A stretch of DNA of 46,169 nucleotides from Candidatus Aegiribacteria sp. (GTDB lineage Bacteria > Fermentibacterota > Fermentibacteria > Fermentibacterales > JCC-6). Each line of letters starts with the position of its first letter. Within the stretch, counting starts at the first letter, position 1. Where the stretch lies: contig JAIORS010000211.1 of the NCBI GenBank assembly GCA_021108005.1, positions 1 to 46,169 of the forward strand, given 5' to 3'. Shown in pieces: positions 3,974 to 25,500 of this stretch. Under the pieces are notes generated by a model. The model was given only the letters and a program-made list of their open reading frames with translations, was not told where the DNA came from and ran no database searches. Made by a program: the position numbers and the translations under genes.

Positions 3974-4771
3974 ATGAGTAACGAAAAAATGGCACCTTAT
4001 AAACTCGAAAAGTCCCCGGCGGATAAGAGTATTCTGGTGCTTTCGGGAAAGGGCGGAGTAGGCAAGAGTACCGTTGCGGCTAACCTTGCCATTTCACTTT
4101 CCCTTCAGGGTTATGCTACAGGGCTCCTGGATACGGATTTTCACGGTCCCAGCATACCAAAACTTCTTGGCATGGAGGGAACGACTCTTACATCACCCGA
4201 CGGTAAAAGGCTTAATCCCGCAGAAATTGGATCTCTGAAAGTGATTTCCGTTGATTTCATGCTCGGCAGCAGAACCGATGCTGTAATCTGGCGGGGACCC
4301 ATGAAGATGAATGTCATCAAGCAGCTTTTTGAAGATGTTAACTGGGGAGAGCTTGATTACATGATTATTGACTGTCCTCCTGGAACCGGTGATGAACCCC
4401 TTTCGGTTGTTCAGCTCATCCCTGAACCTACAGGCGCTGTTATCGTAACCACTCCACAGGAAATATCTCTCTCCGACGTAAGGCGTTCAATTCAGTTCTG
4501 TCACACCCTTAAGCTCCCGGTACTGGGAGTCATCGAGAATATGTCAGGATTCGTCTGTCCACATTGTGGTGAGAGAACAGAGTTGTTCGGCTCAGGCGGG
4601 GGAGAGAGAATGGCATCTGAAATGGGAGTGCCCTTCCTGGGAAGAATCCCGATAGAACCGGAAATTGTATTATCGGGAGACAACGGGAAACCCTTCGTTA
4701 ACCATAATGGAAATTCAGCATTCGCAAAGGATTTCAACGGTATTGTAAAGGATATAGTTGAGAAAGTCTGA
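3974..4771 (+). CDS. Mrp/NBP35/ApbC-family iron-sulfur carrier P-loop ATPase
   Basis: This 265-aa ATPase carries the deviant Walker A motif GKGGVGKST near the N-terminus, the DTDFHGPS switch, the IIDCPPGTGDE motif, and the C-terminal CPHC pair that in Mrp/NBP35 proteins bridges a labile [4Fe-4S] cluster at the dimer interface. It lacks the N-terminal DUF59/MIP18 domain of E. coli Mrp, as many NBP35-like forms do. The start at 3974 is chosen because AGGAAAGG precedes it. The in-frame ATG at 3869 would add 35 unrelated residues. The likely role is Fe-S cluster assembly or transfer. It is convergent with the lipoprotein gene with no gap between stops. Confidence 0.92.
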   Translation: MSNEKMAPYKLEKSPADKSILVLSGKGGVGKSTVAANLAISLSLQGYATGLLDTDFHGPSIPKLLGMEGTTLTSPDGKRLNPAEIGSLKVISVDFMLGSRTDAVIWRGPMKMNVIKQLFEDVNWGELDYMIIDCPPGTGDEPLSVVQLIPEPTGAVIVTTPQEISLSDVRRSIQFCHTLKLPVLGVIENMSGFVCPHCGERTELFGSGGGERMASEMGVPFLGRIPIEPEIVLSGDNGKPFVNHNGNSAFAKDFNGIVKDIVEKV

Positions 4772-5260
4772 TTACATATTCATTCCGAACTCCGTAACCT
4801 TCCACTGACCGTCTTCCTTTACAACATCGATTGTATTGGTTTCGGATTCACCCATTACAATTGTTGTTACTTCGACCCGTGCCGTGTTACCATCAATGGT
4901 AACTTCGCCTATTGATACTTCGCTGGATTCCATTAAGGATGTTATCACGGGAGAGGAAATCAAGGCCACCATGAAGTCCTTTGTGGTCATGTCGGGAATA
5001 TCCGCTGCATCTATCTCGATACCCATAGCACTCAGCTGCTGTGCAGACTGTGCGGGGGCCATCTTAATCATTTCCAGTTGTGAATCCATTTCCGAAAGAG
5101 CGCTTTCTGACATGTAAGCGACCGCTCTTTCGCCATCTCCTGCCTTCAGAGCATCGAACATTTCGGTTACAGCATCGCCAGGATTACCGGCGCTGTTGCC
5201 ATCGCCGCAAGCCATTGTGAGAGCGAACAGCAATATGGAAAATACCGCAAGCGCTTTCAT
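4772..5260 (-). CDS. DUF4878-like lipoprotein
   Basis: This 162-aa protein has a lipoprotein signal peptide with lipobox LTMAC (Cys18). The mature domain has the pattern of DUF4878/NTF2-like lipoproteins: an amphipathic start (DAVTEMFDALKAGDGERAVAYMSES), a central helical part, and a C-terminal sheet ending with the hallmark EDGQWKVTEF. It is homologous over its whole mature length to the larger protein at 34415-35071 (shared GQWKVT / NQWKVTNF ending and matching spacing). Its function is unknown. It is probably anchored in a membrane facing the periplasm. Confidence 0.8.
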   Translation of the reverse strand: MKALAVFSILLFALTMACGDGNSAGNPGDAVTEMFDALKAGDGERAVAYMSESALSEMDSQLEMIKMAPAQSAQQLSAMGIEIDAADIPDMTTKDFMVALISSPVITSLMESSEVSIGEVTIDGNTARVEVTTIVMGESETNTIDVVKEDGQWKVTEFGMNM

Positions 5261-5294
5261 GATTTCCTTTCCTGTTGGTTATCGAATGATTAGT

Positions 5295-5325
5295 TCTATA
5301 CTTAAACGTATAAATCCATTGTCAA
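5295..5325 (-). promoter_or_regulatory. Possible sigma-70 promoter of the lipoprotein gene
   Basis: On the minus strand TTGACA (5320-5325) is a perfect -35 box and TATAGA (5295-5300) a fair -10 box. The 19-nt spacer is longer than ideal. It lies 35-65 nt upstream of the lipoprotein start. Confidence 0.4.
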
Positions 5326-5339
5326 TAACGGTGTACTAC

Positions 5340-5524
5340 TTAACCCGCATCCATCACAAACACTTTACTGCAGCGATGCATATAGTCGTGTCTACTGCGT
5401 TATACTCAAGCATCCGTCCTCGACGTACTGTTCAAGTACGCCTCCGGAGTCTGCTTTCGCAAGCCTTGTATCCACAACCATCTGCAGCGCTTCGCTACAA
5501 GTGCTTGTGATGGATGCGGGTTAA
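5340..5524. repeat. 185-bp element with 26-bp terminal inverted repeats (MITE-like)
   Basis: The ends are inverted copies, TTAACCCGCATCCATCACAA at the left and its complement at the right, 26 nt each with one mismatch (5340-5365 and 5499-5524). Inside, CGTACT-GTTCA-AGTACG (5424-5440) forms a hairpin. There is no open reading frame of note. The right end contains the TAA stop of the outer-membrane gene at 5521. This looks like a non-autonomous mobile or BIME-type intergenic repeat. No target-site duplication is obvious. Confidence 0.65.
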
Positions 5525-6609
5525 AGGTTCCAGCTTAATCCGGCGGAGTAATAGGTTTCGCTGTCATCGATATTGGAAATATAGGGTTCAGGGAACGCAT
5601 ATCCTGACCTGCTTCTGCTCATCCATGAAATAGCCATATCGAGATTCATCCTGCCGAAATAGATGCAGGTTCCCGTTCCCAGACAGAGAGCTGCCCTGTT
5701 GTAATCGGTGGCTCTGACAAAGCCTACATTGTAGGTCGATCTGACGTTTGGTAACATTTCCGCCAGACAGATGAACGTTTTACCGGATACGGCGGGGTTC
5801 TTTTCTTCCAGGGATTGAAGATCGAACTCCACGCCCAGTGTGCTTCCATTCAGAATATTGAAATCCCTCTGGAATCCGAAGGCTATCCTTGAGTCGTACC
5901 TGCCTGTTTTATTCGTACCGGATATGCCGAACGTTCCGAAACTGAATGGCATGAGAAGCCCCGCATGAAAACAGAAATCGGATTCCTCCCAACTTACTTC
6001 AGTTGTATCATCGGGAGCTATAGGATTTACGATATCATGCCTGAGTGTATAAGATCCGTTTCCGAATCGCATCCCGCCGGATACACCCGCGGTAAGCCAG
6101 TCACTGATAACCACTGAAATCCCGGTATTCGCCTCCCATAGGGAGCCACGTGAATCCAGCAGATCAGTTGCGTAAATTTTATAACCGCAATATCCATACT
6201 CTTCCAGTATATTGCTGATACCGCTGAATCCGAAGTGAGAGACCCTTGATAATCCTGCGGCAATCGATACGGTTTCAGATATTTCAGTTCCCAAGGCCGC
6301 GGTTACCGTTCCAAAGTTGCCAGTGTTTAAATGATCGTAATCCAGTTCAGCGCTGGTATATGAGTGACATTCAGCAATTGCTGTGGTAATTTTGATGGAA
6401 GTACCGTCCATCATGGATAATTCCGCCGGATTAAGAAAAATGGATGCCGCTTCGCTTGATGGAAGAGCCCAGACCCCACCCATCGCGCTCTGTTTAGGGG
6501 TTATACAGATTATGGGAGTGCCGTTTCCCATGGCGTCATGGAATCCCCATGCTGAGACTGCGGATGCGAATATGATAAACGTAGCTGTAATCAGAAATAC
6601 TAATTTCAT
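5521..6609 (-). CDS. PorV/FadL-like outer-membrane protein, copy 1 of a tandem pair
   Basis: The predicted protein is 362 aa from the ATG at 6609, which follows GGGGA at good spacing; an in-frame ATG at 6657 has no such site. A signal peptide ends at VSA-WGF. The early mature sequence has the motif QSAMGGVWAL...ASIFLNPAEL, like the AMGGA...NPAGL signature of PorV/UPF0164/FadL-type barrels, followed by many beta strands and an aromatic-leucine C-terminus (LSWNL). It is a close paralog of the next gene, with exactly the same length. A 184-bp segment (6377-6560) is identical in both. The stop codon lies inside the end of the 185-bp repeat element. Confidence 0.8.
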   Translation of the reverse strand: MKLVFLITATFIIFASAVSAWGFHDAMGNGTPIICITPKQSAMGGVWALPSSEAASIFLNPAELSMMDGTSIKITTAIAECHSYTSAELDYDHLNTGNFGTVTAALGTEISETVSIAAGLSRVSHFGFSGISNILEEYGYCGYKIYATDLLDSRGSLWEANTGISVVISDWLTAGVSGGMRFGNGSYTLRHDIVNPIAPDDTTEVSWEESDFCFHAGLLMPFSFGTFGISGTNKTGRYDSRIAFGFQRDFNILNGSTLGVEFDLQSLEEKNPAVSGKTFICLAEMLPNVRSTYNVGFVRATDYNRAALCLGTGTCIYFGRMNLDMAISWMSRSRSGYAFPEPYISNIDDSETYYSAGLSWNL

Positions 6610-6684
6610 ATTGTTCCCCATTCTGTTACGAAATTTACATTGCATCTCAAGTTGCAATTAGTACAATACGCACTGGTCTGCATG

Positions 6685-7773
6685 TTATAGGCTCCAGCTT
6701 AGTCCGGCGGTGTAATAGGTTCCTCTGTCATCGATATTGGAAATGTAGGGTTCAGGGAAAGCGTTTCCCCTTCTGCTTCTGCTCATCCATGAAATACTCA
6801 GATCAAGATCCATCTTTCCGAAATCGACGCAGGCACCGGTTCCAAGACAGAGAGACGCCTTATTGGCATCAACAGCCCTGATGAAGCCTACGCTGTAAAT
6901 CGATCTGATATTCGGCATTATTTCCGGCAGATAGGCGAACGCTTTACCGGATGTGGCGCAGTTCTTTTCTTCTATGGACTGAACATCGAACTCCACGCCC
7001 AGAGTGCTTCCATTCAGAAGACTGAAATCCTTCTGGAATCCGAAGGCTACTCTTGAATCGTACCTGCCGGTTGGATTCGTGCCGGATACTGCAAATGTTC
7101 CGAAACTGAATGGCATGAGAAGCCCCGCGTGAAAACAGAAATCGGATTCATCCCAATCCACCTCGGTTGTATCATCGGGATATAAAGGATCTACGATCTC
7201 ATGCCTGAGTGTATAAGATCCGTTCCCGAATCGCAGCCCGCCGGATACACCTGCTGTAAGCCAGTCACTGATAACCACCGAAATGCCGGTATTCGCCTCC
7301 CATAGGGAGCCACGTGAATCCAGCAGATCAATTGCGTAAATCCTATATTCATTCAATCCACACTCTTCCAGTATATTGCTGATACCGCTGAATCCGAAGT
7401 GCGAGACCCTTGCTATCCCGGTACCGATTGATACCACATCGGATATTTCAGTTCCAACGGCCGCGGTTACCGTTCCCAGGGTACCCGAGTCAAAACGATC
7501 GTAATCCATGGTTCCGCTGATATACGAGTACCATTGAATGATTGCTGTGGTAATTTTGATGGAAGTACCGTCCATCATGGATAATTCCGCCGGATTAAGA
7601 AAAATGGATGCCGCTTCGCTTGATGGAAGAGCCCAGACCCCACCCATCGCGCTCTGTTTAGGGGTTATACAGATTATGGGAGTGCCGTTTCCCATGGCGT
7701 CATGGAATCCCCATGCTGAGACTGTAGACGAAAATATGATAAGCGAAGCCACAAACAGAAGTACTAACCTCAT
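6685..7773 (-). CDS. PorV/FadL-like outer-membrane protein, copy 2 of a tandem pair
   Basis: This 362-aa paralog of the gene at 5521 has the same signal peptide style, the same AMGG...NPAEL motif and a C-terminal LSWSL. The start is the ATG at 7773 behind GGAGA; the in-frame ATG at 7797 is less likely. It is upstream of copy 1 with a 75-nt gap, so the pair is probably one transcript from the promoter at 7825-7853. PorV-like proteins in T9SS organisms help bring cargo to the surface, but that role here is only suggested by the T9SS cargo genes nearby. Confidence 0.8.
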   Translation of the reverse strand: MRLVLLFVASLIIFSSTVSAWGFHDAMGNGTPIICITPKQSAMGGVWALPSSEAASIFLNPAELSMMDGTSIKITTAIIQWYSYISGTMDYDRFDSGTLGTVTAAVGTEISDVVSIGTGIARVSHFGFSGISNILEECGLNEYRIYAIDLLDSRGSLWEANTGISVVISDWLTAGVSGGLRFGNGSYTLRHEIVDPLYPDDTTEVDWDESDFCFHAGLLMPFSFGTFAVSGTNPTGRYDSRVAFGFQKDFSLLNGSTLGVEFDVQSIEEKNCATSGKAFAYLPEIMPNIRSIYSVGFIRAVDANKASLCLGTGACVDFGKMDLDLSISWMSRSRRGNAFPEPYISNIDDRGTYYTAGLSWSL

Positions 7774-7824
7774 TCTGTTCTCCATTTCATTGTGCAATTA
7801 TCATTAAAATCAGAATTAGCTATA

Positions 7825-7853
7825 ATAATATTCGATTGTTCTTAACATTACAA
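7825..7853 (-). promoter_or_regulatory. Sigma-70-type promoter for the outer-membrane gene pair
   Basis: On the minus strand TTGTAA (7848-7853) and TATTAT (7825-7830) are separated by 17 nt, about 52 nt upstream of the ATG at 7773. Confidence 0.6.
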
Positions 7854-7883
7854 GAGTCATATTCAGGTAAGGATTTGAAAGGG

Positions 7884-7907
7884 CGGAGGGGGCGACTGCC
7901 CCCTCCG
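7884..7907 (-). terminator. GC-rich terminator hairpin of the propeller-protein gene
   Basis: A perfect 10-bp stem (CGGAGGGGGC / GCCCCCTCCG) with loop GACT lies 12 nt past the stop of the gene at 7919. On the minus strand it is followed by CCCTTTC, a weak U-tract. Confidence 0.75.
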
Positions 7908-15752: not shown

Positions 15753-15776
15753 GTTGATTGACAGATAATAATCAAC
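15753..15776. promoter_or_regulatory. Inverted repeat between hutU and the M14 peptidase gene
   Basis: GTTGATT (15753-15759) and AATCAAC (15770-15776) are perfect 7-nt arms 10 nt apart in the divergent intergenic region, a possible operator for either gene. Chance occurrence is possible. Confidence 0.25.
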
Positions 15777-15805
15777 ATGTTCCCTTTTTCCCAGAGAAGG
15801 TAATA

Positions 15806-17989
15806 ATGAAAAATGTGGTTTTACTTCTAATTGTAACCGTCGCTTCGGTTACCGCAGGACGGTATTCTCTTCTGAATTTCAAACCTGTTAATGATACTGA
15901 AGCTCACAGACTGATGGATTCCGGCTGTGAAATTATTCATGTATACGAAGACGGCTCGGTTGATGTAATTGCCAATGAGCATGATTACACTTCTCTTCTT
16001 GCCACAGGTTTGCCTTTCACTACCCGGATCGATGACCTTGAGAGTTTTTACAGCAGTAGGCTCGATGGCGAATCCATGGGTGGGTATCTCACATGGGACG
16101 AGCTTTCCGTCTGGCTTGACGATCTTCACGATACGTTTCCGAATATCACTAGCGCGCCCACTTCGATAGGAAATACTTACGAAGGAAGGCCGCAGAGGGT
16201 GGTCAAGATATCTTCGAATAACGATTTCTGGACCGACGACCCCTCGCTGCCGAACGTCTGGTACGATGCTCTCATTCATGCAAGAGAACCGGCCAGTATG
16301 CGGAATGTCAGGTTCTTTATGCTGTGGCTCTGCGACAACTACGGGCGAAACGGTTTCTGCGGTCTGCAGGCGACCTGGTTACTTGATAATCGTGAGATCT
16401 GGTGCCTGCCATGTAACAATGTGGACGGCTACGTTTACAACCAGCAGGAGTCTCCCGGCGGTGGCGGGATGCAGAGGAAGAACATGAACTGGAGCGCGGG
16501 AGGCGACGGTGTCGACCTGAACAGGAACTGGACTGTGGGATGGGGAGGCACAGGATCGAGTGGAAGCCCTTCCTCCAGTACGTACAGGGGGACGGCAGCT
16601 CTAAGCGAACCGGAATCGAACAATATCGATGCCTTCTGGCAGAATCATCCACCGGTAGAAATGCATTCCACACACACGTACGGAAACATTCTCATAAGAC
16701 CATGGGGTTACACAGCCAGCCCTCCCCTGCACGATAGTGAATATGATGAGCATGCTGAGATAATGGTTCAATGGGGAACAGGCGAGGTTCACGGACAGTC
16801 CTGGGGCGTACTGTACGCCTCAGCCGGTAACACCCGTGACCACTCCTACGGGCTGTACGACGCCATGAGCTGGAATCACGAAACAGGAGCGGATTTTGCC
16901 GGTTTCTGGCCCTCGTTAACGGAGACTGTCAAGCTTACCCGAAGGAATCTAAGAAGCTATCTCGTAACTGCGTTTCTGGCCGGTTGTCCCCTTGATCCTC
17001 ATGTACCGGGTACTCCTGTAATTGAGAATATCGGATCGGTCAGCACACCCTTTACGATTAACTGGAGTGACGTTCCTGAGGCAGCCTCCTACGCTCTTCA
17101 GGAGCTGTCAGGGTACGAGGTTCTCCTTGATGATAACGGCAGCGGGGGACCTTTTACTATGAATAACTGGTCGACAACAACCTCTCAGTATCACTCCTCT
17201 CCGAGCTGCTACCTCTCGGGGGGAACTGGAACGATAACCTGGACAGAGACCGCCATCATACCGGAAAACGGAGGGGGAAGACTGAGTTTCTGGGCTTATT
17301 ACAACATCCCCAACGGTTCGTGTCAGGGCAGTATTGAAGTTTCAACCGATGGTGGGGCCAACTGGTACTACCTTCAGACTTTCACCCGAAATGACATGAC
17401 ATGGCGTTATAACATCCATGAACTGGACGAATGGCAGGGGGATACACTGAGTTTCAGATGGGAAACCAATGGAAATTCCAGTGATCTTTATATCGATGAT
17501 ATAAAAATAGAGATATGGGAGGAGAACGAATTCGTAGATCTTGGTGTTCCTGTCAGTTCCTATACTTTCGCAACCCATGAGAGTGGAGAATTCTGGTACA
17601 GAACAGTGGCAATGGACCCGGACTTCGGTCCCGGCTGGCCTTCCGATGCGGTTGCGGCACAGGTAACCAGCACAGGTATCTCAGGTGGTGTGGTGGGTAC
17701 TGGAATCACTCGTCTTGGTCATTTCTGCCCCAATCCAGCTTCATGTGCGACCTCGATTCCGATAACGATTTCCTCTGCATCCGAAGGGCTGACCTCACTG
17801 ACCCTTTACGACCTTGCGGGAAGGCAGGTAATTGATCTGTCTTCACAGCTTGAAGGAAGAGGATTGAACACCGTTATCTGGGATTGCAGCGATTCCCGCG
17901 GGAATGCGGTATCCGGAGGTATTTATTTCATCGTTATTGATGCGTCGGACCTTGTGCAGACAAGGAAAATTGTCGTTCTAGAACAGTAG
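15806..17989 (+). CDS. Secreted M14-family zinc carboxypeptidase with T9SS sorting domain
   Basis: The start at 15806 follows AGAAGG and begins a signal peptide (MKNVVLLLIVTVASVTAG), giving 727 aa. The M14 domain (residues about 95-400) has the zinc motif HAREP (His158, Glu161), VDLNRNW with the substrate-binding Asn-Arg, a later zinc-ligand candidate near His287 (EMHSTHTYG), and Glu359 in NHETGADFAG as the probable catalytic Glu. A jelly-roll/MAM-like domain follows (about 440-590). The C-terminal 85 residues are a T9SS sorting domain (CPNPAS, LTLYDLAGRQV, GGIYFIVID, KIVVLEQ). It probably degrades extracellular proteins or peptides. The kinase-like gene starts only 25 nt downstream. Confidence 0.92.
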   Translation: MKNVVLLLIVTVASVTAGRYSLLNFKPVNDTEAHRLMDSGCEIIHVYEDGSVDVIANEHDYTSLLATGLPFTTRIDDLESFYSSRLDGESMGGYLTWDELSVWLDDLHDTFPNITSAPTSIGNTYEGRPQRVVKISSNNDFWTDDPSLPNVWYDALIHAREPASMRNVRFFMLWLCDNYGRNGFCGLQATWLLDNREIWCLPCNNVDGYVYNQQESPGGGGMQRKNMNWSAGGDGVDLNRNWTVGWGGTGSSGSPSSSTYRGTAALSEPESNNIDAFWQNHPPVEMHSTHTYGNILIRPWGYTASPPLHDSEYDEHAEIMVQWGTGEVHGQSWGVLYASAGNTRDHSYGLYDAMSWNHETGADFAGFWPSLTETVKLTRRNLRSYLVTAFLAGCPLDPHVPGTPVIENIGSVSTPFTINWSDVPEAASYALQELSGYEVLLDDNGSGGPFTMNNWSTTTSQYHSSPSCYLSGGTGTITWTETAIIPENGGGRLSFWAYYNIPNGSCQGSIEVSTDGGANWYYLQTFTRNDMTWRYNIHELDEWQGDTLSFRWETNGNSSDLYIDDIKIEIWEENEFVDLGVPVSSYTFATHESGEFWYRTVAMDPDFGPGWPSDAVAAQVTSTGISGGVVGTGITRLGHFCPNPASCATSIPITISSASEGLTSLTLYDLAGRQVIDLSSQLEGRGLNTVIWDCSDSRGNAVSGGIYFIVIDASDLVQTRKIVVLEQ

Positions 17990-18014: not shown

Positions 18015-19529
18015 ATGAAGCAGCTGGACGGGATCAGAAATATTCTATCTGCTATCACAGACGCTGTTGTGCTCGTTGATTCCAAGAAACGAATAACTTT
18101 TATGAACGCGGAAGCGGAAAAACTTACAGGATTCAGCGCTGAGGATGCGGCGGGGAAGGATATCTGGGAGGTCTGCGTCTTTATCGAGCAGAATACACGA
18201 AAATCGGTTACAGATGATATAGATGAAATACTGCTAAGGGATGGATACTTGAATTTTCCCGTGGCTACTGTAATCATCCCCAGAAAGGAAGATGAAATAC
18301 TGATAAGAGGAGGTGTCTTCCTGTCAGATCATTCGCTGGGAAATCCTGATGCTATTGAAGGTGTGGTTTTCAGGAATGTCAGCTCAAGATGGTTAATGGA
18401 CACGTCTATGCAGAGAAACCAGAAGGCTGAAGCCATCAGGATTCTTGCAGGAGGTATCGCGGACAACCTGAACGATCTTCTTACAGTTCTCCTGGCGAGG
18501 TTGTCCGTGATAAGCAGAAACCATAATGACAGAACCGCCGTTTTCAGGTCCATCCGCGATTCGAAGAAGATTATCGGCAAGATCAGTTCGATGATATCCA
18601 GTCTATCTCCCAGAGAGGATCCGGGGAACATTAACAGTAAGAATATCTGTCTTTTTAAGAATGTCATCAGGAGCAGCCTGGAAATTTTTACTGCTGCTTT
18701 TCCAGATCTTAATATAGAGCTGGCCTATCCTGACCGGACAGGTTATACAAGCATTCCTTCCGGGTTTGTGGAGCAGATAGTCGTGAACCTCATTATGAAT
18801 GCCGGGGAGGCAGTCAGTGGTGATGGCACCATAAGTATCACAGCGTGCAGGATAGATCTTCCGCAGGAAATAAAACCTGTAAATGCGGGAAGCTACGTAA
18901 TTCTATCTGTAAATGACGATGGATGCGGTATTTCAGACGAGAATCTTACCAGAATTATTGATCCATTCTACACCACCAAGCGAAAGCAGGGCGGTCTCGG
19001 ATTATCTGCCGTATATTCAATTGTGAACAGTTATAAAGGCTATATCGCTGTCAGATCCAAACTTGGTGAGGGTTCGTCTTTTTCTGTATATCTGCCGGCA
19101 GCCCCTGGAATTGTTACTGAGACCGCCAGCGATGTTATCCCCGGAGTTTTTATCGCAGGCTTTGAACAAATGGAGGAACAGCTGCTCAGCAGAATTCTGG
19201 AAGCAGTTGGCTGTACAGTTTTGCCTGTAACAGCTGAAAGTATTAAGGAAAATTCGATTCCGGAAGATGCAAAGGCTGCGGAGTATAAGCTACTGCTGAC
19301 CGATTACGATTTCTATATGTCAGAAATCGACCTGTTCACAGATTTGGATATCCTGGAAAATGTGAAAATCGCTGTCATTAACGAATCTTATCATGTACCG
19401 GATAACGTGGATTCGAACATAGTGTTCATCAGAAGGCCTTTAGGGATTGACAGTGTTGCCGCGGCTGTTACCAGGTGCGCCTGGGCAAGGCCTGTAGAAA
19501 CGGTGAAGGTTGGCGGAAGTGAAGATTAA
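18015..19529 (+). CDS. PAS-histidine-kinase-like protein lacking the phospho-acceptor histidine
   Basis: The 504-aa protein has no signal peptide. Residues 5-120 form a PAS domain (ILSAITDAVVLVDSKKRITFMN). The dimerisation helix reads LAGGIADNLNDLL where kinases of this type have GGIAHDFNNLL, so the His is Asp150. The ATPase domain is well kept: N box NLIMNAGEA, G1 DDGCGIS, F box DPFYTTK, G2 GGLGLS, ending in GSSFSVYLP. The tail (about 375-500) looks like a degenerate receiver with LLLTDYDF but without the usual acidic pair. AGGGG precedes the ATG. It overlaps the first zinc-ribbon gene, which points to an operon. It probably binds ATP but cannot autophosphorylate in the normal way. Confidence 0.8.
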   Translation: MKQLDGIRNILSAITDAVVLVDSKKRITFMNAEAEKLTGFSAEDAAGKDIWEVCVFIEQNTRKSVTDDIDEILLRDGYLNFPVATVIIPRKEDEILIRGGVFLSDHSLGNPDAIEGVVFRNVSSRWLMDTSMQRNQKAEAIRILAGGIADNLNDLLTVLLARLSVISRNHNDRTAVFRSIRDSKKIIGKISSMISSLSPREDPGNINSKNICLFKNVIRSSLEIFTAAFPDLNIELAYPDRTGYTSIPSGFVEQIVVNLIMNAGEAVSGDGTISITACRIDLPQEIKPVNAGSYVILSVNDDGCGISDENLTRIIDPFYTTKRKQGGLGLSAVYSIVNSYKGYIAVRSKLGEGSSFSVYLPAAPGIVTETASDVIPGVFIAGFEQMEEQLLSRILEAVGCTVLPVTAESIKENSIPEDAKAAEYKLLLTDYDFYMSEIDLFTDLDILENVKIAVINESYHVPDNVDSNIVFIRRPLGIDSVAAAVTRCAWARPVETVKVGGSED

Positions 19530-20214
19530 CTGTACACAGTGCGGGGCAGAACAGGTTGTTATTGAAAGCAATTTTTTCCTCAGATGTCCCTACTGTGACG
19601 CCAGGATTATCGTTGATCCTCCTGAGAATACTCCGGCATTGATCGAACCAGCCGTTCGGGAAGAATATGTAAGGAGGCTCTTTCCAACAGATATGGTCTC
19701 ATCGGTGGAAATGAAATACTTTCCGTATCTGGAGAATGACCTGTCTTCCGTTAGAGAAATTCACCCCTGCTTCAGCCAGCCCTGGCAGGAGCTTGAAGAT
19801 TACCTTCCCCCGTCCGGGGACAGGAAGATATTTGATGAAAGCCTCGCGGAGCCTGACCAGCTGATACCATTTGACAAGGATATGGCTGAAGAAAGCGGGA
19901 GCAGGATAGTTTTTCACCCGTTGTATGTTGTCATGCTGAAACTTGAAGGTTACGGAGAAGGTTTGCTGGTAGACGGTGTATCCGGAAAACTCATCAGCGA
20001 ATCCCCTTTGGTGGAAAATGATGATGATTCGGTGCAGAAACTGTACAGAACTTTTTTAATAACTCTGGCTGCTGGCCTTGTTTTCACGGTTCCCGTCTAT
20101 TTCCTTACAAAGGGTTTCAGTGAGTTCTTTCTTTCCGGAATCTGGACATTCATGATCATTGTCTCTCTGGTTCTGGCATTCTATCATTTCAAGATAAAGA
20201 CTGGCAGAAGATGA
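19510..20214 (+). CDS. Zinc-ribbon membrane protein of unknown function, paralog 1
   Basis: I do not recognise the family by name. The N-terminus is a zinc ribbon (CTQC and CPYC, 17 residues between pairs). The middle is soluble and contains FHPLYVVMLKLEGYGEGLLVDGVSG, which matches a region in paralog 2 of the form Y-x-P-L-W...G...VDG-x-[ST]-G. The C-terminus has two transmembrane segments and a basic tail (KIKTGRR). The start is TTG 19510 or GTG 19519, and either overlaps the preceding kinase-like gene. It overlaps paralog 2 by 4 nt (ATGA). It probably sits in the inner membrane with the ribbon in the cytoplasm. Confidence 0.75.
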   Translation: MAEVKINCTQCGAEQVVIESNFFLRCPYCDARIIVDPPENTPALIEPAVREEYVRRLFPTDMVSSVEMKYFPYLENDLSSVREIHPCFSQPWQELEDYLPPSGDRKIFDESLAEPDQLIPFDKDMAEESGSRIVFHPLYVVMLKLEGYGEGLLVDGVSGKLISESPLVENDDDSVQKLYRTFLITLAAGLVFTVPVYFLTKGFSEFFLSGIWTFMIIVSLVLAFYHFKIKTGRR

Positions 20215-21287
20215 ACAAAGTAACAGTCGCCTTTACCTGTCCATCGTGCGCCGGACCCCTCAGTATTCGAGAAGGGGATACCCATACAATCTGCCCGAAC
20301 TGTGCCAGCAGCCTGCTGCTTCCGAATGCGGTGAGCAGATACGTGCTGCCATCAACGGTAGAGGCTATAAATATTCTCCGGTCGGTGCGAAGTGAACTTA
20401 AGAAAGTGAATTCCGACAGCATTGGGAAGGCCAGGGTAAGTAAACCGGTGCTTTATTATGTACCTTTCTGGCACTGCAACGCACAGGCAAACGGTTACAT
20501 ACTGGGAGTGGAGCCCGTTTATCATGAAAGAGAAATTCCCACAATCGATACTGACGGTCGGAATCCAGCTGCTCGTATCGTTTCAATCACCAGAAAGGTT
20601 AAGACTCGAACGGGATCCAACGCTATTGAGCGGGAGGTTCAGCTGTCCGGAAGCGTGAACATAAGCGCGGCTGACCTCGAACCCCTAGGCATCCCCACTC
20701 TTTCATCCGACTCGCAGCTTTCCATACAGGGGCTTGATATCCAACGTACTACTCTTCCTGAGGGGCTGGAAGTTCTTGAGGATGAGAGTTCCAGAAACGG
20801 TGTATTCGTTGATCCGGTCATTACCGTTGCCGATGCCCATGAGCAGACAGCCAGTTATTTCAGCAGACTTGCCTCAGGTGTCGGTTTCGGACTCGAAGAG
20901 AGGTGGGAATATATTGTCATTTCCGGATATCGTGACGCACTTGTTTATTATCCTCTATGGATAACCGATTTCAGATTCGATGGGAGATCCTATCAGGTGG
21001 TTGTTGATGGGCGTTCTGGAAGTGTTCTGCGCGGAAGGTTCCCATCCTCAGGCAAGGACAAAAAAATTATTACCATCGCTGCCGCACTGCTATGGGCCGG
21101 GATTCTTCCTTTCATTCTTGATCTTCTTTTCAGTGGACAACTCAATTACAAAACCCCCTCCGGGAATCAGTCCAGCTGTTTACCGACAATTATTCTCATT
21201 ATGAGTGCCCTGGCATACGGAACCTGGCATCTACTTAAAATACTTGGCAGAGTGGTTGGAAAAGGAAACGATCATGTTATTTACTAA
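20211..21287 (+). CDS. Zinc-ribbon membrane protein of unknown function, paralog 2
   Basis: The 358-aa protein starts with a zinc ribbon (CPSC...CPNC) and has two repeats of the triad's core motif, YYVPFWHCNAQANGYI and YYPLWITDFRFDGRSY, the latter followed by VVVDGRSGSV. The pattern resembles the Y-x-P-[VL]-W...VNGQTGK motif of other zinc-ribbon membrane proteins that I recall only as uncharacterised. Two transmembrane segments lie near the C-terminus, around LLWAGILPFILDLL and TIILIMSALAYGTWHLL. The ATG overlaps the stop of paralog 1, so they are translationally coupled. Function is unknown. Confidence 0.78.
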   Translation: MNKVTVAFTCPSCAGPLSIREGDTHTICPNCASSLLLPNAVSRYVLPSTVEAINILRSVRSELKKVNSDSIGKARVSKPVLYYVPFWHCNAQANGYILGVEPVYHEREIPTIDTDGRNPAARIVSITRKVKTRTGSNAIEREVQLSGSVNISAADLEPLGIPTLSSDSQLSIQGLDIQRTTLPEGLEVLEDESSRNGVFVDPVITVADAHEQTASYFSRLASGVGFGLEERWEYIVISGYRDALVYYPLWITDFRFDGRSYQVVVDGRSGSVLRGRFPSSGKDKKIITIAAALLWAGILPFILDLLFSGQLNYKTPSGNQSSCLPTIILIMSALAYGTWHLLKILGRVVGKGNDHVIY

Positions 21288-21310
21288 TTTTATCAGGATG
21301 GTTATTTCCG

Positions 21311-21991
21311 ATGCGACGTAATATTTCAAAGATGACTCTTCTTCGATGTTCCAACTGCGGAAGCGATCTTCGTGGGCTTTCTTCAGATGTTGTTTTTTAC
21401 TGCTCTGAGTGCGGCAGATGCTGGATTTCCGGCGAACGGTTCGAACCAGTCAGTATTGAATTCATGAGGGATAGTGATTCCAGCTCTGTTTTCCTGCCTT
21501 TTTGGAGAGTTGACGCTACCGTTACCATACACAGCCGCTTATCCCGCAAGAAATCTTTGACATCGGGAGTTAATGGACCCAGGAAATTCACCGGCAGGGA
21601 AAGAGGGCTTACAGAGTCCGACTCAGGCTATCACAAAGACAGATTCATTTTTCCGGCATTTTCGACAAGCCTGGTTCTCTCCACCGGAGTCAGAATGCAC
21701 GGAGAGAACTTCCTGCCTGAGGAAATGGAGCATGGGAAACGTTTCAGCGTAATCGGCGGTTCTGTAGGAAGGGATGATGCCGTTTCTCTGGCCAGAGGGG
21801 TTGCTGTGGGTGTTGAGGTCAACAGATCTGATTTCCTTGCATCGGTTGACCTTGATATCGAAGTTCACGCGGCAGGTATTTATGCAATCGGGTGTACGCC
21901 CGAGAAAACCGTTTTCAGTATCAACGGCTCGAAAATCGGTATTCCCTACACTGCCGCACCGGATTCCGATGAATATTTTAAGCGGAGTTAA
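21311..21991 (+). CDS. Zinc-ribbon protein of unknown function, paralog 3 (no membrane segment)
   Basis: The 226-aa protein has an N-terminal ribbon (CSNC...CSEC, then GRCW) and then VFLPFWRVDATVTIH, equivalent to the PFW motif of paralog 2. Unlike paralogs 1 and 2 it has no transmembrane segment, so it may be a soluble partner. It begins 23 nt after paralog 2 and ends the probable operon. GGATGG lies ahead of the ATG. Another start could be MTLLRCSNC, 7 codons further in. Function is unknown. Confidence 0.72.
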   Translation: MRRNISKMTLLRCSNCGSDLRGLSSDVVFYCSECGRCWISGERFEPVSIEFMRDSDSSSVFLPFWRVDATVTIHSRLSRKKSLTSGVNGPRKFTGRERGLTESDSGYHKDRFIFPAFSTSLVLSTGVRMHGENFLPEEMEHGKRFSVIGGSVGRDDAVSLARGVAVGVEVNRSDFLASVDLDIEVHAAGIYAIGCTPEKTVFSINGSKIGIPYTAAPDSDEYFKRS

Positions 21992-22099: not shown

Positions 22100-22828
22100 A
22101 TGTCAGGACACAATAAATGGAGCAGTATAAAACATAAGAAATCGAAAGCTGACGCTGCGAGGGGCAAGATTTTCAGTAGACTGGTTAAAGAGATATCTGT
22201 TGCCGCAAGGGAGGGTGGAGGAGACGTAGAAACGAACGCCCGATTAAGGGTTGGGGTAGAGACCGCGAAATCCCACAATATGCCTTCCGACAATATAGAG
22301 CGGGCTATAAAGAGAGGGACAGGCGCCCTTGAAGGCATCACTTACGAGGAAATGACATACGAAGCCTACGGCCCTGGCGGAGTCGCGATAATCATTGAAG
22401 TACTGACGGATAACAAGAACAGAACCGCAGCGGAAATAAGACATTCCCTCTCAAAGCATGGCGGTCATCTCGGTTCAAGGAACAGTGTAGCCTATATGTT
22501 CAACAGGGTCGGAAAGATAATCATCGATGGTGCCAGGTATTCCGAGGACCAGGTACTTGAGGCAGGCCTTGAAGCCGGTCTTGAAGACGTCCAGACAATT
22601 GATGATATAATAGTAGCTTCAACTTCGCCTTCAGATGTATTCGATGTTAAGAATGCCCTGGTGGAGATGGGTGTAGTACCTGAAAGCGCAGAGGTTACAA
22701 AGGAACCGGATAACTTTATAGGGTTAAGCTCCAGGGAAGCTGAAAAGGCTGTTGCTCTTCTTGAAATACTTGAAGAAAATGATGATGTTCAGGCGATTCA
22801 TACCAATTTTGAGATACAGGAGGATTAA
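22100..22828 (+). CDS. yebC: YebC/PmpR/TACO1-family protein
   Basis: This 242-aa protein starts with the family signature MSGHNKWSSIKHKK and has the conserved VAAREGG, TYEAYGPGG and NRTAAEIRH segments. The family was described as DNA-binding regulators. More recent work on YebC and TACO1 points to a ribosome-associated factor that relieves stalling at proline stretches. It is the first gene of a tight cluster with ruvC, ruvA, ruvB and queH, a common arrangement. AGGAG precedes the ATG. Confidence 0.95.
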   Translation: MSGHNKWSSIKHKKSKADAARGKIFSRLVKEISVAAREGGGDVETNARLRVGVETAKSHNMPSDNIERAIKRGTGALEGITYEEMTYEAYGPGGVAIIIEVLTDNKNRTAAEIRHSLSKHGGHLGSRNSVAYMFNRVGKIIIDGARYSEDQVLEAGLEAGLEDVQTIDDIIVASTSPSDVFDVKNALVEMGVVPESAEVTKEPDNFIGLSSREAEKAVALLEILEENDDVQAIHTNFEIQED

Positions 22829-23359
22829 TTGCCTGAAACTGGATCTTCCATCTATATGGGTATAGATCCCGGGTTGGGCACAACAGGATACGGAGTGCTT
22901 CGCTTCTCATCCGGTTACATCGAACTTCTTGACGGCGGGACAATAACATCATCAGCAAATGATACGCTTCCCGAAAGACTGAATGAACTCTATTGCGGAA
23001 TGCTGGAGATTATTAATAAATACAGCCTGGTAGCAATGGGGCTTGAGAAGATATATGCTCATTACAAGCATCCGTCTACGGCAATAAAAATGGCGCATGC
23101 CCGTGGTGTATTGAGTCTTGCGGCTGTTCGAAGTGAAGTACGCGTTGTTTCTTTGCCTTCTACAAGAATAAAGAAGCTTGTTACAGGGAACGGGAGAGCC
23201 AGCAAGGAACAGGTATCAGGCATGGTCAGGCATCTCCTTGGTTTGACCGTTGAAATACGACCGGACGATGTTTCAGATGCCCTTGCCATTGCAATAGCTG
23301 CTTACGAAAGTGAAAAAAATGATAGAAAGTTTAAGGGGCTCAGTAGAAAGAACGGTTAA
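22829..23359 (+). CDS. ruvC: Holliday-junction resolvase RuvC
   Basis: RuvC is the endonuclease that cuts four-way junctions, working with the RuvAB motor. This 176-aa protein shows the RNase H-fold catalytic acids: GIDPGLGTTGYG near residue 13, LEKIY in the middle, and DDVSDALAIA near the end. The start is a TTG directly after the yebC stop, with AGGAGG at 22818-22823 and 5-nt spacing. No ATG precedes the first catalytic Asp except Met10, which would cut into strand 1. Confidence 0.95.
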   Translation: MPETGSSIYMGIDPGLGTTGYGVLRFSSGYIELLDGGTITSSANDTLPERLNELYCGMLEIINKYSLVAMGLEKIYAHYKHPSTAIKMAHARGVLSLAAVRSEVRVVSLPSTRIKKLVTGNGRASKEQVSGMVRHLLGLTVEIRPDDVSDALAIAIAAYESEKNDRKFKGLSRKNG

Positions 23360-23918
23360 TTCCACCATTCATATTAGAACCGGTTCGTTCGTTATCGGGA
23401 TTCTGACTCCGGGCTACTTTTTCAGAAGTGTAACCGCGGGACAGGAGCTTGATATCCCGGTTTACCTGCATCTACAGCTTGAAGGTAATCGTGTAGTTCC
23501 CCTGTTGGTGGGGTTTCCAGAAGTTCGCGACAGGGAATTCTTCGAGAAATTCATCTCGGTATCCGGTGTGGGAGTTAAGGCCGCCGTTAAAGCGCTTGAA
23601 AAACCTCCTTATAGAATTGCTTCGGCAATAGCCTCGGAGGACTACGATTACCTGACAACTCTGCCCGGAATAGGAAAGAAGAGGGCCAGGCAGATAGTAG
23701 CAGGACTTCAGGAACAGATGAAGAAAATGTATGGAGCTGTTTCGTCCGTCGGTGACATTCCAGATACACATGGCGAAGCCAGAGCGGTTCTCAGGCAGCT
23801 TGGCGTGCCTGTAGCTGAAGCGGATAAATTAATTGAAATGGCCTGCAGCGAGCTTGACTCCGGAGCCGGGATATCGACTGTTGTTAAACGCGCGATGAGA
23901 ATCAGGAGCAGAAAGTGA
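23319..23918 (+). CDS. ruvA: Holliday-junction DNA helicase subunit RuvA
   Basis: RuvA is the junction-binding partner of RuvB. The 199-aa protein begins MIESLRG, matching the MIGRLRG start of the family, so the ATG at 23319 is preferred over the GTG at 23310. It overlaps ruvC by 41 nt. The two helix-hairpin-helix motifs are clear: SVSGVGVKAAVKAL and TLPGIGKKRARQIVAGL. Domain I is more divergent than usual (GYFFRSVTAGQELD instead of GYEV...), and the C-terminal UBA-like domain (GEARAVLRQLGV) that contacts RuvB is present. Confidence 0.92.
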   Translation: MIESLRGSVERTVNSTIHIRTGSFVIGILTPGYFFRSVTAGQELDIPVYLHLQLEGNRVVPLLVGFPEVRDREFFEKFISVSGVGVKAAVKALEKPPYRIASAIASEDYDYLTTLPGIGKKRARQIVAGLQEQMKKMYGAVSSVGDIPDTHGEARAVLRQLGVPVAEADKLIEMACSELDSGAGISTVVKRAMRIRSRK

Positions 23919-24946
23919 GCAGAGAATCAATCATCTCAGGAGAAGCTCAGAGGATCGATGAGACTGCTGACGAAACCACACTGCCTTCTCTCAGGCCTGA
24001 AAACCTGAATGAATACATCGGTCAGAAAGCTGTAATACAGAAGCTGACAATCGCGATAAAGGCTGCTCTTGGCAGAGGAGAACCCCTTGATCACATTCTG
24101 TTTCACGGGCCTCCCGGCCTTGGTAAAACCACACTGGCTCATATCGTTTCCAATGAAATGAACGCTGGTCTTATTTGTACTTCCGGACCCGCTCTTGAAA
24201 GGGCAGCCGATCTGGTTGGAATCCTGACCAACCTGCAGCAGGGGGATATCCTCTTTATTGATGAGATTCACAGGCTTCCCAGGGTGGTGGAGGAGTACCT
24301 CTATCCGGCAATGGAGGATTTCGTCATTGATATCGTGCTGGATCCCGGTCCCCATGCAAGAACGGTAAGACTTGATCTTGCCGAGTTCACGATTGTTGGC
24401 GCTACCACCCGCGCGGGTCTTATTACCGGACCCTTGAGAAACAGGTTCGGCCTGTCACTTCATATGCAGTTTTACAATACAGATGAATTGGCGGAGATAA
24501 TCAGAAGATCATCCCGTATACTGAACCTGGAATTGACCGATGGAGGAGCTGAAACCATAGCGTTACGGTCCCGGGGCACTCCCAGAATCTGCAACAGATT
24601 ACTAAAGAGGGTAAGGGATTTCGCCCAGGTTGAAGGCAAGGATGTGGTTACTGAGGACGTCGCTGTGGAGGCCATGGATATTCATGGTGTAGACGAAGCC
24701 GGTCTTGACAGTCTTGATAGAAAGTACCTCAGTGTCATAATAAAGCAGTATACCGGAGGCCCCGTTGGAGTCGCAGCCCTGGCGGCAACCCTTAACGAAG
24801 AAAAGGATACTCTGATCGATGTTGTTGAGCCGTTTCTTCTTATTTCAGGATTTTTAAACCGCACGAGCAGGGGAAGAATGACTACCATCAAAGCTTACAG
24901 TCATCTGGGGTTGAAGTACAGCATACAGGAAGAACTCCCTTTGTGA
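23915..24946 (+). CDS. ruvB: Holliday-junction branch-migration ATPase RuvB
   Basis: This 343-aa AAA+ motor drives branch migration with RuvA. Motifs seen are LRPENLNEYIGQ, Walker A GPPGLGKTTLAH, Walker B LFIDEIHRL, sensor I VGATTRAG with the following LRNRFG, and a C-terminal winged helix (GGPVGVAALAATL...FLNRTSRGR). The start is GTG, overlapping the ruvA stop by 4 nt (GTGA). Confidence 0.97.
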   Translation: MSRESIISGEAQRIDETADETTLPSLRPENLNEYIGQKAVIQKLTIAIKAALGRGEPLDHILFHGPPGLGKTTLAHIVSNEMNAGLICTSGPALERAADLVGILTNLQQGDILFIDEIHRLPRVVEEYLYPAMEDFVIDIVLDPGPHARTVRLDLAEFTIVGATTRAGLITGPLRNRFGLSLHMQFYNTDELAEIIRRSSRILNLELTDGGAETIALRSRGTPRICNRLLKRVRDFAQVEGKDVVTEDVAVEAMDIHGVDEAGLDSLDRKYLSVIIKQYTGGPVGVAALAATLNEEKDTLIDVVEPFLLISGFLNRTSRGRMTTIKAYSHLGLKYSIQEELPL

Positions 24947-25500
24947 AAACGGATGAATCCCTTCTACTTCACGCATGCTGCGGCCCATGTACGACTGTAG
25001 TATGTGAACAGCTTCAAATGGAGGGTTTCGAAATCACTGCCTTTTTCTACAATCCTAACATACACCCCTGGAAGGAGAGGGAGAGAAGGCTTCAGGCACT
25101 TAAAGACTACGCCGATTCAAATGAGATACCTCTTGAGATCGATGAGGAATACCCTCTTGAAGAGAATATCAGGATGCTGCTGGATTCTGATAACAGGTGC
25201 TATGCCTGTTTCGAGGACAGACTTTCGGCAACGGCTGCTCGAGCGGCGGAACGTGGAATTGAGACTTTTTCCACTACTCTTTCAGTAAGCCCCTACCAGA
25301 ACCAGGCATTTATTATGTCAGCGGGAAAGATCGCCGAGAAGAAAAGCGGCGTTCGTTTCGTATACAGAGACTTCAGGGAGTTCTACAATGAATCCATACG
25401 GATTTCCAGAGAAGCGGGAATGTACAGGCAGCCTTACTGCGGCTGCGTTTTCAGCGAACGAGACAGGTATCTGAAATTGAAATCACCAGGACAGATCTAA
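24943..25500 (+). CDS. queH: Epoxyqueuosine reductase QueH
   Basis: QueH (DUF208) carries out the last step of queuosine tRNA modification, reducing epoxyqueuosine without cobalamin. The 185-aa protein has the expected Cys sets: HACCGPC (Cys12, 13 and 16), CYACF in the middle and YCGCVFSE near the end. These bind a [4Fe-4S] cluster and a second iron in characterised members. The pattern FYNPNIHPWKER is also typical. It starts with GTG overlapping the ruvB stop by 4 nt. It overlaps the convergent FG-GAP gene by 4 nt. Confidence 0.95.
   Translation: MKTDESLLLHACCGPCTTVVCEQLQMEGFEITAFFYNPNIHPWKERERRLQALKDYADSNEIPLEIDEEYPLEENIRMLLDSDNRCYACFEDRLSATAARAAERGIETFSTTLSVSPYQNQAFIMSAGKIAEKKSGVRFVYRDFREFYNESIRISREAGMYRQPYCGCVFSERDRYLKLKSPGQI

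Follow-up and report, generated by a model that had tools for sequence, protein, structure and literature searches.

Four tightly linked genes in a stretch of 46,169 nucleotides from Candidatus Aegiribacteria sp. (Fermentibacterota; contig JAIORS010000211.1, hereafter the window) raise the question of whether a sensor kinase that lacks its phospho-accepting histidine and three neighboring zinc-ribbon proteins form a single membrane complex, as an initial annotation had proposed. The three ribbon genes, here ZR1, ZR2 and ZR3, recur outside the phylum, often beside a flotillin-like gene, and the trio therefore looks like an undescribed membrane-maintenance module. The kinase, on the other hand, is a local neighbor of the trio and no core part of it.

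The four genes of the window

All four open reading frames were found where they had been annotated on the forward strand, and the encoded proteins are conserved in dozens of genomes. The first gene (18015..19529, + strand; 504 aa) had been described as a PAS/ATPase sensor-like protein, and Pfam indeed identifies a PAS domain (2.4e-9) and a HATPase_c domain (PF02518, 2.6e-18), which are followed by a degenerate receiver-like C-terminus. The protein is also His-less as claimed, since alignment with its orthologs places Asp150 (codon LAGGIADNLNDLL, 18462..18464, + strand) in the column that the phospho-accepting His would occupy. Column read-out of this alignment reveals D, G, S, Y and rarely H among the orthologs, with H occurring only in the L039/L041 clade, and the same alignment reveals conserved N, G1 and G2 ATP-binding boxes. 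The C-terminal part is receiver-like without the acidic pair; its Lys is replaced by Arg in the clade of the window and retained only in the clade that retained the His. No Pfam receiver match was obtained for the window protein, and hydropathy analysis revealed no transmembrane (TM) segments. Judged by its sequence, the window kinase is a pseudokinase derived from a hybrid histidine kinase. Because the His is replaced and the receiver is degenerate while the ATP-binding boxes persist, the ortholog pattern suggests that phosphotransfer was lost among close relatives.

ZR1 (19519..20214, + strand; 231 aa), delineated from ortholog starts, alignments and hydropathy, carries an N-terminal CxxC-CxxC ribbon, a P-F/Y core, an LVDGVSG segment and two C-terminal TM segments. 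The 20-nt overlap with the kinase gene originally reported relies on an alternative TTG start at 19510; ortholog ZR1 starts match the GTG at 19519 instead, measurement in the four closest orthologs (L031, L032, L034, L035) gave an overlap of 11 nt, and the overlap in the window is therefore probably 11 nt. ZR2 (20211..21287, + strand; 358 aa) combines the ribbon with a YVPFW core, a YYPLW...YQVVVDGRSG segment and two TM helices, whereas ZR3 (21311..21991, + strand; 226 aa), with a ribbon, an LPFW strand and a compact beta-rich domain, has no TM segment; both descriptions draw on alignments and AlphaFold models. The reported 4-nt overlap of ZR1 and ZR2 and the 23-nt gap between ZR2 and ZR3 were both reproduced, giving spacings of -11, -4, +23 and +108 nt from the kinase gene through the trio to yebC.

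The genes yebC-ruvC-ruvA-ruvB-queH (22100..25500, + strand; from the gene order in L031-L065) are the downstream neighbors of the trio throughout Fermentibacterota, but they are no part of the system. Upstream lies a gene for a metallocarboxypeptidase-like secreted protein that we name CPM14 (15758..17989, + strand; its identity comes from reading alone), a neighbor of the trio in family f1 that is likewise outside the system. Promoter and terminator scans performed no better than on shuffled sequence.

The ribbon trio and its probable SPFH partner across phyla

Alignments across Fermentibacterota reveal that the CxxC...CxxC motif is invariant in ZR1, ZR2 and ZR3 and that their P-F/L-W/Y motifs rank among the most conserved columns phylum-wide. 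The annotated ribbon and P-[FL]-[WY] core thus hold for all three proteins, as does the VDG-x-SG motif for the first two (LVDGVSG in ZR1, VVDGRSG in ZR2). The topology had also been read correctly, in that hydropathy reveals two C-terminal hydrophobic segments each in ZR1 and ZR2, the two membrane proteins, and none in the soluble ZR3. That the three are paralogs needs some differentiation: profile homology between ZR1 and ZR2 (hhalign E 1.5e-25) covers nearly the whole cytosolic part of ZR1, whereas the match of ZR3 (E 1.4e-10) covers only the ribbon and the P-F-W strand.

The AlphaFold models of ZR2 (pLDDT 77.8; helices at 281-307 and 324-347) and ZR3 (pLDDT 86.6, pTM 0.83) look alike, as judged from secondary structure rather than superposition, in that the ribbon leads into long beta strands bearing P-F-W. 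The fold search that the initial annotation had suggested went no further than the ribbon, as Foldseek against the PDB returned no ZR2 match below E 0.06 and no ZR3 match below E 1, and the ribbon was the sole confident overlap. A plasmid search returned only distant Paracoccus zinc-ribbon proteins of about 24% identity. We rejected a defense system, for which PADLOC gave only weak stray matches, and found no earlier description of the trio in open-licence papers.

We searched 385 genomes, of which 343 lie outside Fermentibacterota, with profiles of ZR2 and ZR3. Within the phylum, three families contain ZR1-ZR2-ZR3 in this order, to the extent that the contigs permit; outside it, a trio, a pair or a fused form, its order unchanged, occurs in about 15 families. 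These comprise adjacent trio genes (L081, L082, L084, L086/L087/L103, L088/L089, L090, L094, L097, L098), pairs of ZR1-ZR2 (L083/L085) or ZR2-ZR3 (L080), and a single fused ZR gene (L099, L100, L104, L137). The order of the trio is therefore conserved across phyla, while the kinase is seldom found with it. In a tree of ZR1, ZR2 and sequences resembling YdjG of Bacillus subtilis, 19 of the 21 ZR1 sequences separate from ZR2, and the duplication that gave rise to the two thus probably predates the sampled lineages; the other two ZR1 sequences group with two ZR2 sequences, all four on long branches. These comparisons support the view that ZR1, ZR2 and ZR3 are ancient paralogs kept as a unit across phyla.

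What stands next to the trio outside Fermentibacterota is frequently a gene of the YdjI-type SPFH (flotillin/band-7) class, which has been investigated chiefly in B. subtilis, together with PspA. Such a gene (Band_7_1) lies directly ahead of the ribbon genes in L081, L090, L099, L100, L104 and L137, that is, in five of about 16 outside families. The chance expectation for this adjacency is near 1e-3 per family, and a binomial calculation with 4 of 15 families yields 6e-10 to 4e-8. In three of the five families, a gene for a LIMLP_15305-like protein of ~170 aa precedes the SPFH gene, so that L081 and L090 read small gene, SPFH, ZR1, ZR2, ZR3, and L100 and L104 small gene, SPFH, fused ZR; L099 and L137 contain SPFH and fused ZR. 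The SPFH protein of L081 pairs its Band_7_1 domain (7e-62) with a C-terminal double ribbon. The match of the small protein to the LIMLP_15305 family (8e-17) is distant and well below the model cut-off, and the single paper found to name LIMLP_15305 itself does so only because it adjoins a small RNA.

In many other genomes, among them genomes of Fermentibacterota, in which the small-SPFH pair is itself conserved, the pair stands apart from the ribbon genes. Within this phylum the SPFH gene is present but away from the trio; in the genome of the window, the pair lies on another contig (G000:C76:64537-66220). In seven genomes of several genera (G001, G006, G007, G013, G020, G022, G040), trio and SPFH gene are 30-46 kb apart on one contig, perhaps the remnant of a once closer arrangement. 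We also note that NfeD-like and slipin-like genes follow the fused ZR gene in L100 (6498-10075) and L104 (6338-10105), so that a single ribbon gene stands between two SPFH genes there, and that L126 (G054; 4107-7889) has the small-SPFH pair but no ribbon genes; the next gene there encodes a large membrane protein, which may take the place of the ribbon platform.

An initial co-occurrence test placed a strong SPFH match in 18 of 19 ribbon genomes and in 2 of 41 controls. Since these controls were hand-listed, we adopted a test over the whole sample of 343 outside genomes (ZR3 at E<1e-10; SPFH, PF13421, at E<1e-30). Here, 18 of the 20 genomes with ZR3 have a strong SPFH match, compared with 30 of the 323 without ZR3 (Fisher p 2.7e-15, ignoring kinship), and p-values of this kind overstate the case because the genomes are not phylogenetically independent. 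The table itself is slightly conservative, because G337 was scored ZR3-negative although its SPFH gene adjoins a fused ZR gene. Exceptions occur in both directions: G118 and G293 have ZR3 but gave no strong SPFH match, and G005, G011 and G023 have SPFH without the trio.

Signaling partner, nucleic-acid unit or membrane platform

If the four genes constituted one signaling system, the His-less kinase would sense ATP or a ligand and signal via the ribbon proteins. Their tight spacing (-11, -4 and +23 nt) fits this reading, as do ATP-binding boxes that are conserved despite the loss of the His, as in DivL (PMC4211667), and a linkage that is kept both in genus g1, to which the window belongs, wherever a genome has the trio on a sufficiently long contig, and in its sister genus g2. 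The kinase adjoins the trio only in these two genera, however. The trio has no kinase gene next to it in genera g3, g4 and g5, where ZR1 is preceded by a carboxypeptidase-like gene or by inserted glycosyltransferase-like genes, in family f3, where a glycosyltransferase-like gene precedes ZR1, and in every locus examined outside Fermentibacterota. Conversely, two genomes retain the kinase directly upstream of yebC with the trio missing (L118 in G011 and L124 in G005). The restriction to g1 and g2, the trio without kinase and the kinase without trio lead us to judge that the kinase is no partner of the trio but an incidental, genus-specific operon neighbor, probably with an accessory role. A joint signaling system is consequently quite improbable, and the tempting annotation of the kinase as the partner of the trio is corrected. 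Of the pattern named with the initial annotation as refuting it, ribbon genes that are scattered and never near such a kinase, one half was thus observed: the genes are not scattered, but they usually stand without such a kinase nearby. Two observations on individual loci may be added. L118 (G011:C52, 7570-9962) presents a clean loss of the trio, in which ~19 residues from the beginning of ZR1 persist after the kinase gene; the long N-terminal extensions of ZR1 in f3, considered as kinase fusions, turned out to be out-of-frame readings of the upstream glycosyltransferase-like gene.

The constant place of the trio upstream of yebC-ruvCAB-queH in Fermentibacterota could alternatively indicate a nucleic-acid-linked, membrane-tethered unit tied to yebC-ruvCAB, with a ribbon that binds DNA or RNA, all the more as the ribbons have similarity to those of RNA polymerase subunit P and of Zn-ribbon RNA-binding proteins. 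These matches span the ribbon alone, for which reason we rejected such an identity for the ZR proteins, and outside the phylum the trio has different neighbors, with yebC-ruv next to it in none of the loci examined. The yebC-ruv link is therefore lineage-specific synteny, and a role of this kind is very unlikely. Somewhat less remote, though still unlikely, is a role unrelated to SPFH, in metal or redox sensing or in envelope assembly, with adjacency and co-occurrence both stemming from the shared ancestry of the sampled phyla: the sampled genomes are not independent, and many trio loci have no SPFH gene nearby (L082, L084, L086-L089, L094, L097, L098). Against it stand the direct SPFH adjacency in five families whose flanking genes differ, the fused ribbon genes that adjoin SPFH in L099, L100, L104 and L137, and the likewise SPFH-paired YdjG-like proteins, to which the trio is related.

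We favor, with somewhat better than even confidence, the reading of ZR1-ZR3 as the membrane-platform part of an SPFH module. A membrane complex, as originally envisaged, is the likeliest reading of paralogs that are kept together and of which two are membrane-anchored; the kinase does not belong to it. From the observed gene order, conservation, homology and co-occurrence we infer complex formation, recruitment and a membrane role along the following lines. Anchored by a C-terminal TM hairpin, ZR1 and ZR2 would each bring to the inner membrane a beta-rich domain and a zinc ribbon on the cytosolic side, and the soluble ZR3 would complete the platform. The platform may then recruit or organize the YdjI-type SPFH protein, with its own double zinc ribbon, and the small LIMLP_15305-like protein, the putative role of the module being membrane maintenance or surveillance. 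It would work like B. subtilis YdjG/YdjH with YdjI, but without PspA, and would be split in the genome of the window between the trio in the window and the small-SPFH pair on the other contig. Rather more tentatively, and at slightly less than even odds in our estimate, the small protein, the SPFH/double-ribbon protein and ZR1-ZR2-ZR3 could represent an undescribed, PspA-independent membrane-surveillance system of many phyla, in which a flotillin-like assembly rests on the ribbon trio as its base in the membrane.

Relation to DivL and to YdjG/SPFH modules

The window pseudokinase resembles DivL, a known pseudo-histidine kinase (PMC4211667), in its ancestral histidine-kinase layout, in the replacement of the phospho-acceptor His and in the persistence of the ATP-binding boxes. 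Unlike DivL, it has close orthologs with Asp, Gly, Ser or Tyr at the His site and a degenerate receiver, and we found no evidence of a DivK-like partner.

For the trio, the closest comparison is YdjG of the B. subtilis pspA-ydjGHI operon, which contains two zinc ribbons, a YpeB-related domain and a TM segment (PMC11237479, PMC9239133); YdjI and PspA depend on YdjG and YdjH for their localization to the membrane, and deletion of ydjG or ydjH abolishes their membrane foci (PMC8581546). Locus L091 encodes a double-ribbon protein, PspA (1.6e-40) and SPFH in a row, the pspA-ydjGHI layout without a recognized ydjH. By virtue of this PspA/SPFH synteny, an alignment of the L091 protein and its relatives (A9) served as a stand-in for B. 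subtilis YdjG. ZR2 matches it with an hhalign E of 6.9e-26 over 255 columns and ZR1 with 1.6e-18, while the match of ZR3 (2.1e-8) covers only the ribbon and the P-F-W strand. YdjG-like genes adjoin SPFH in L142 and L143, and both PspA and SPFH in L091. We note that Fermentibacterota contain a fourth ribbon protein, of the YdjG type, beside an RND-efflux-like gene (L107, G000:C63, 5299-6456; L066, L068, L069), and that proteins with a ribbon, a TM segment and a beta-propeller-like part (L067, 43-1278; L070, 2717-3874) represent another membrane-tethered ribbon architecture in the phylum.

With YdjG, as represented by this stand-in, the trio shares the zinc ribbon(s), the P-[FL]-[WY] core, a G-x-x-Y-x-x-x-V-[DN]-G segment, the TM part and, in five families outside the phylum of the window, the adjacency to YdjI-type SPFH. 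In contrast to YdjG, it has one ribbon per protein instead of two, is divided among three proteins, and includes a soluble third member, ZR3, together with the small LIMLP_15305-like partner. PspA (PF04012) was found in none of the 32 Fermentibacterota genomes searched, nor was it seen beside the trio in the loci examined; membership of the PSP system is therefore not claimed for the trio. Its SPFH partner resembles YdjI in combining Band_7_1 (PF13421) with a C-terminal double zinc ribbon, and is present in the genome of the window. Most trio partners score ~200 bits against PF13421, compared with ~330 for the SPFH proteins beside YdjG-like proteins, which makes two SPFH subclasses likely. If our reading is true, the trio, which can also occur as a fused gene beside SPFH, travels with the ~200-bit subclass and would supply SPFH scaffolds with a membrane partner in phyla that lack PspA, and the anchoring of flotillin-like proteins would become directly testable. 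In sum, the trio is best called a variant of the YdjG/SPFH modules.
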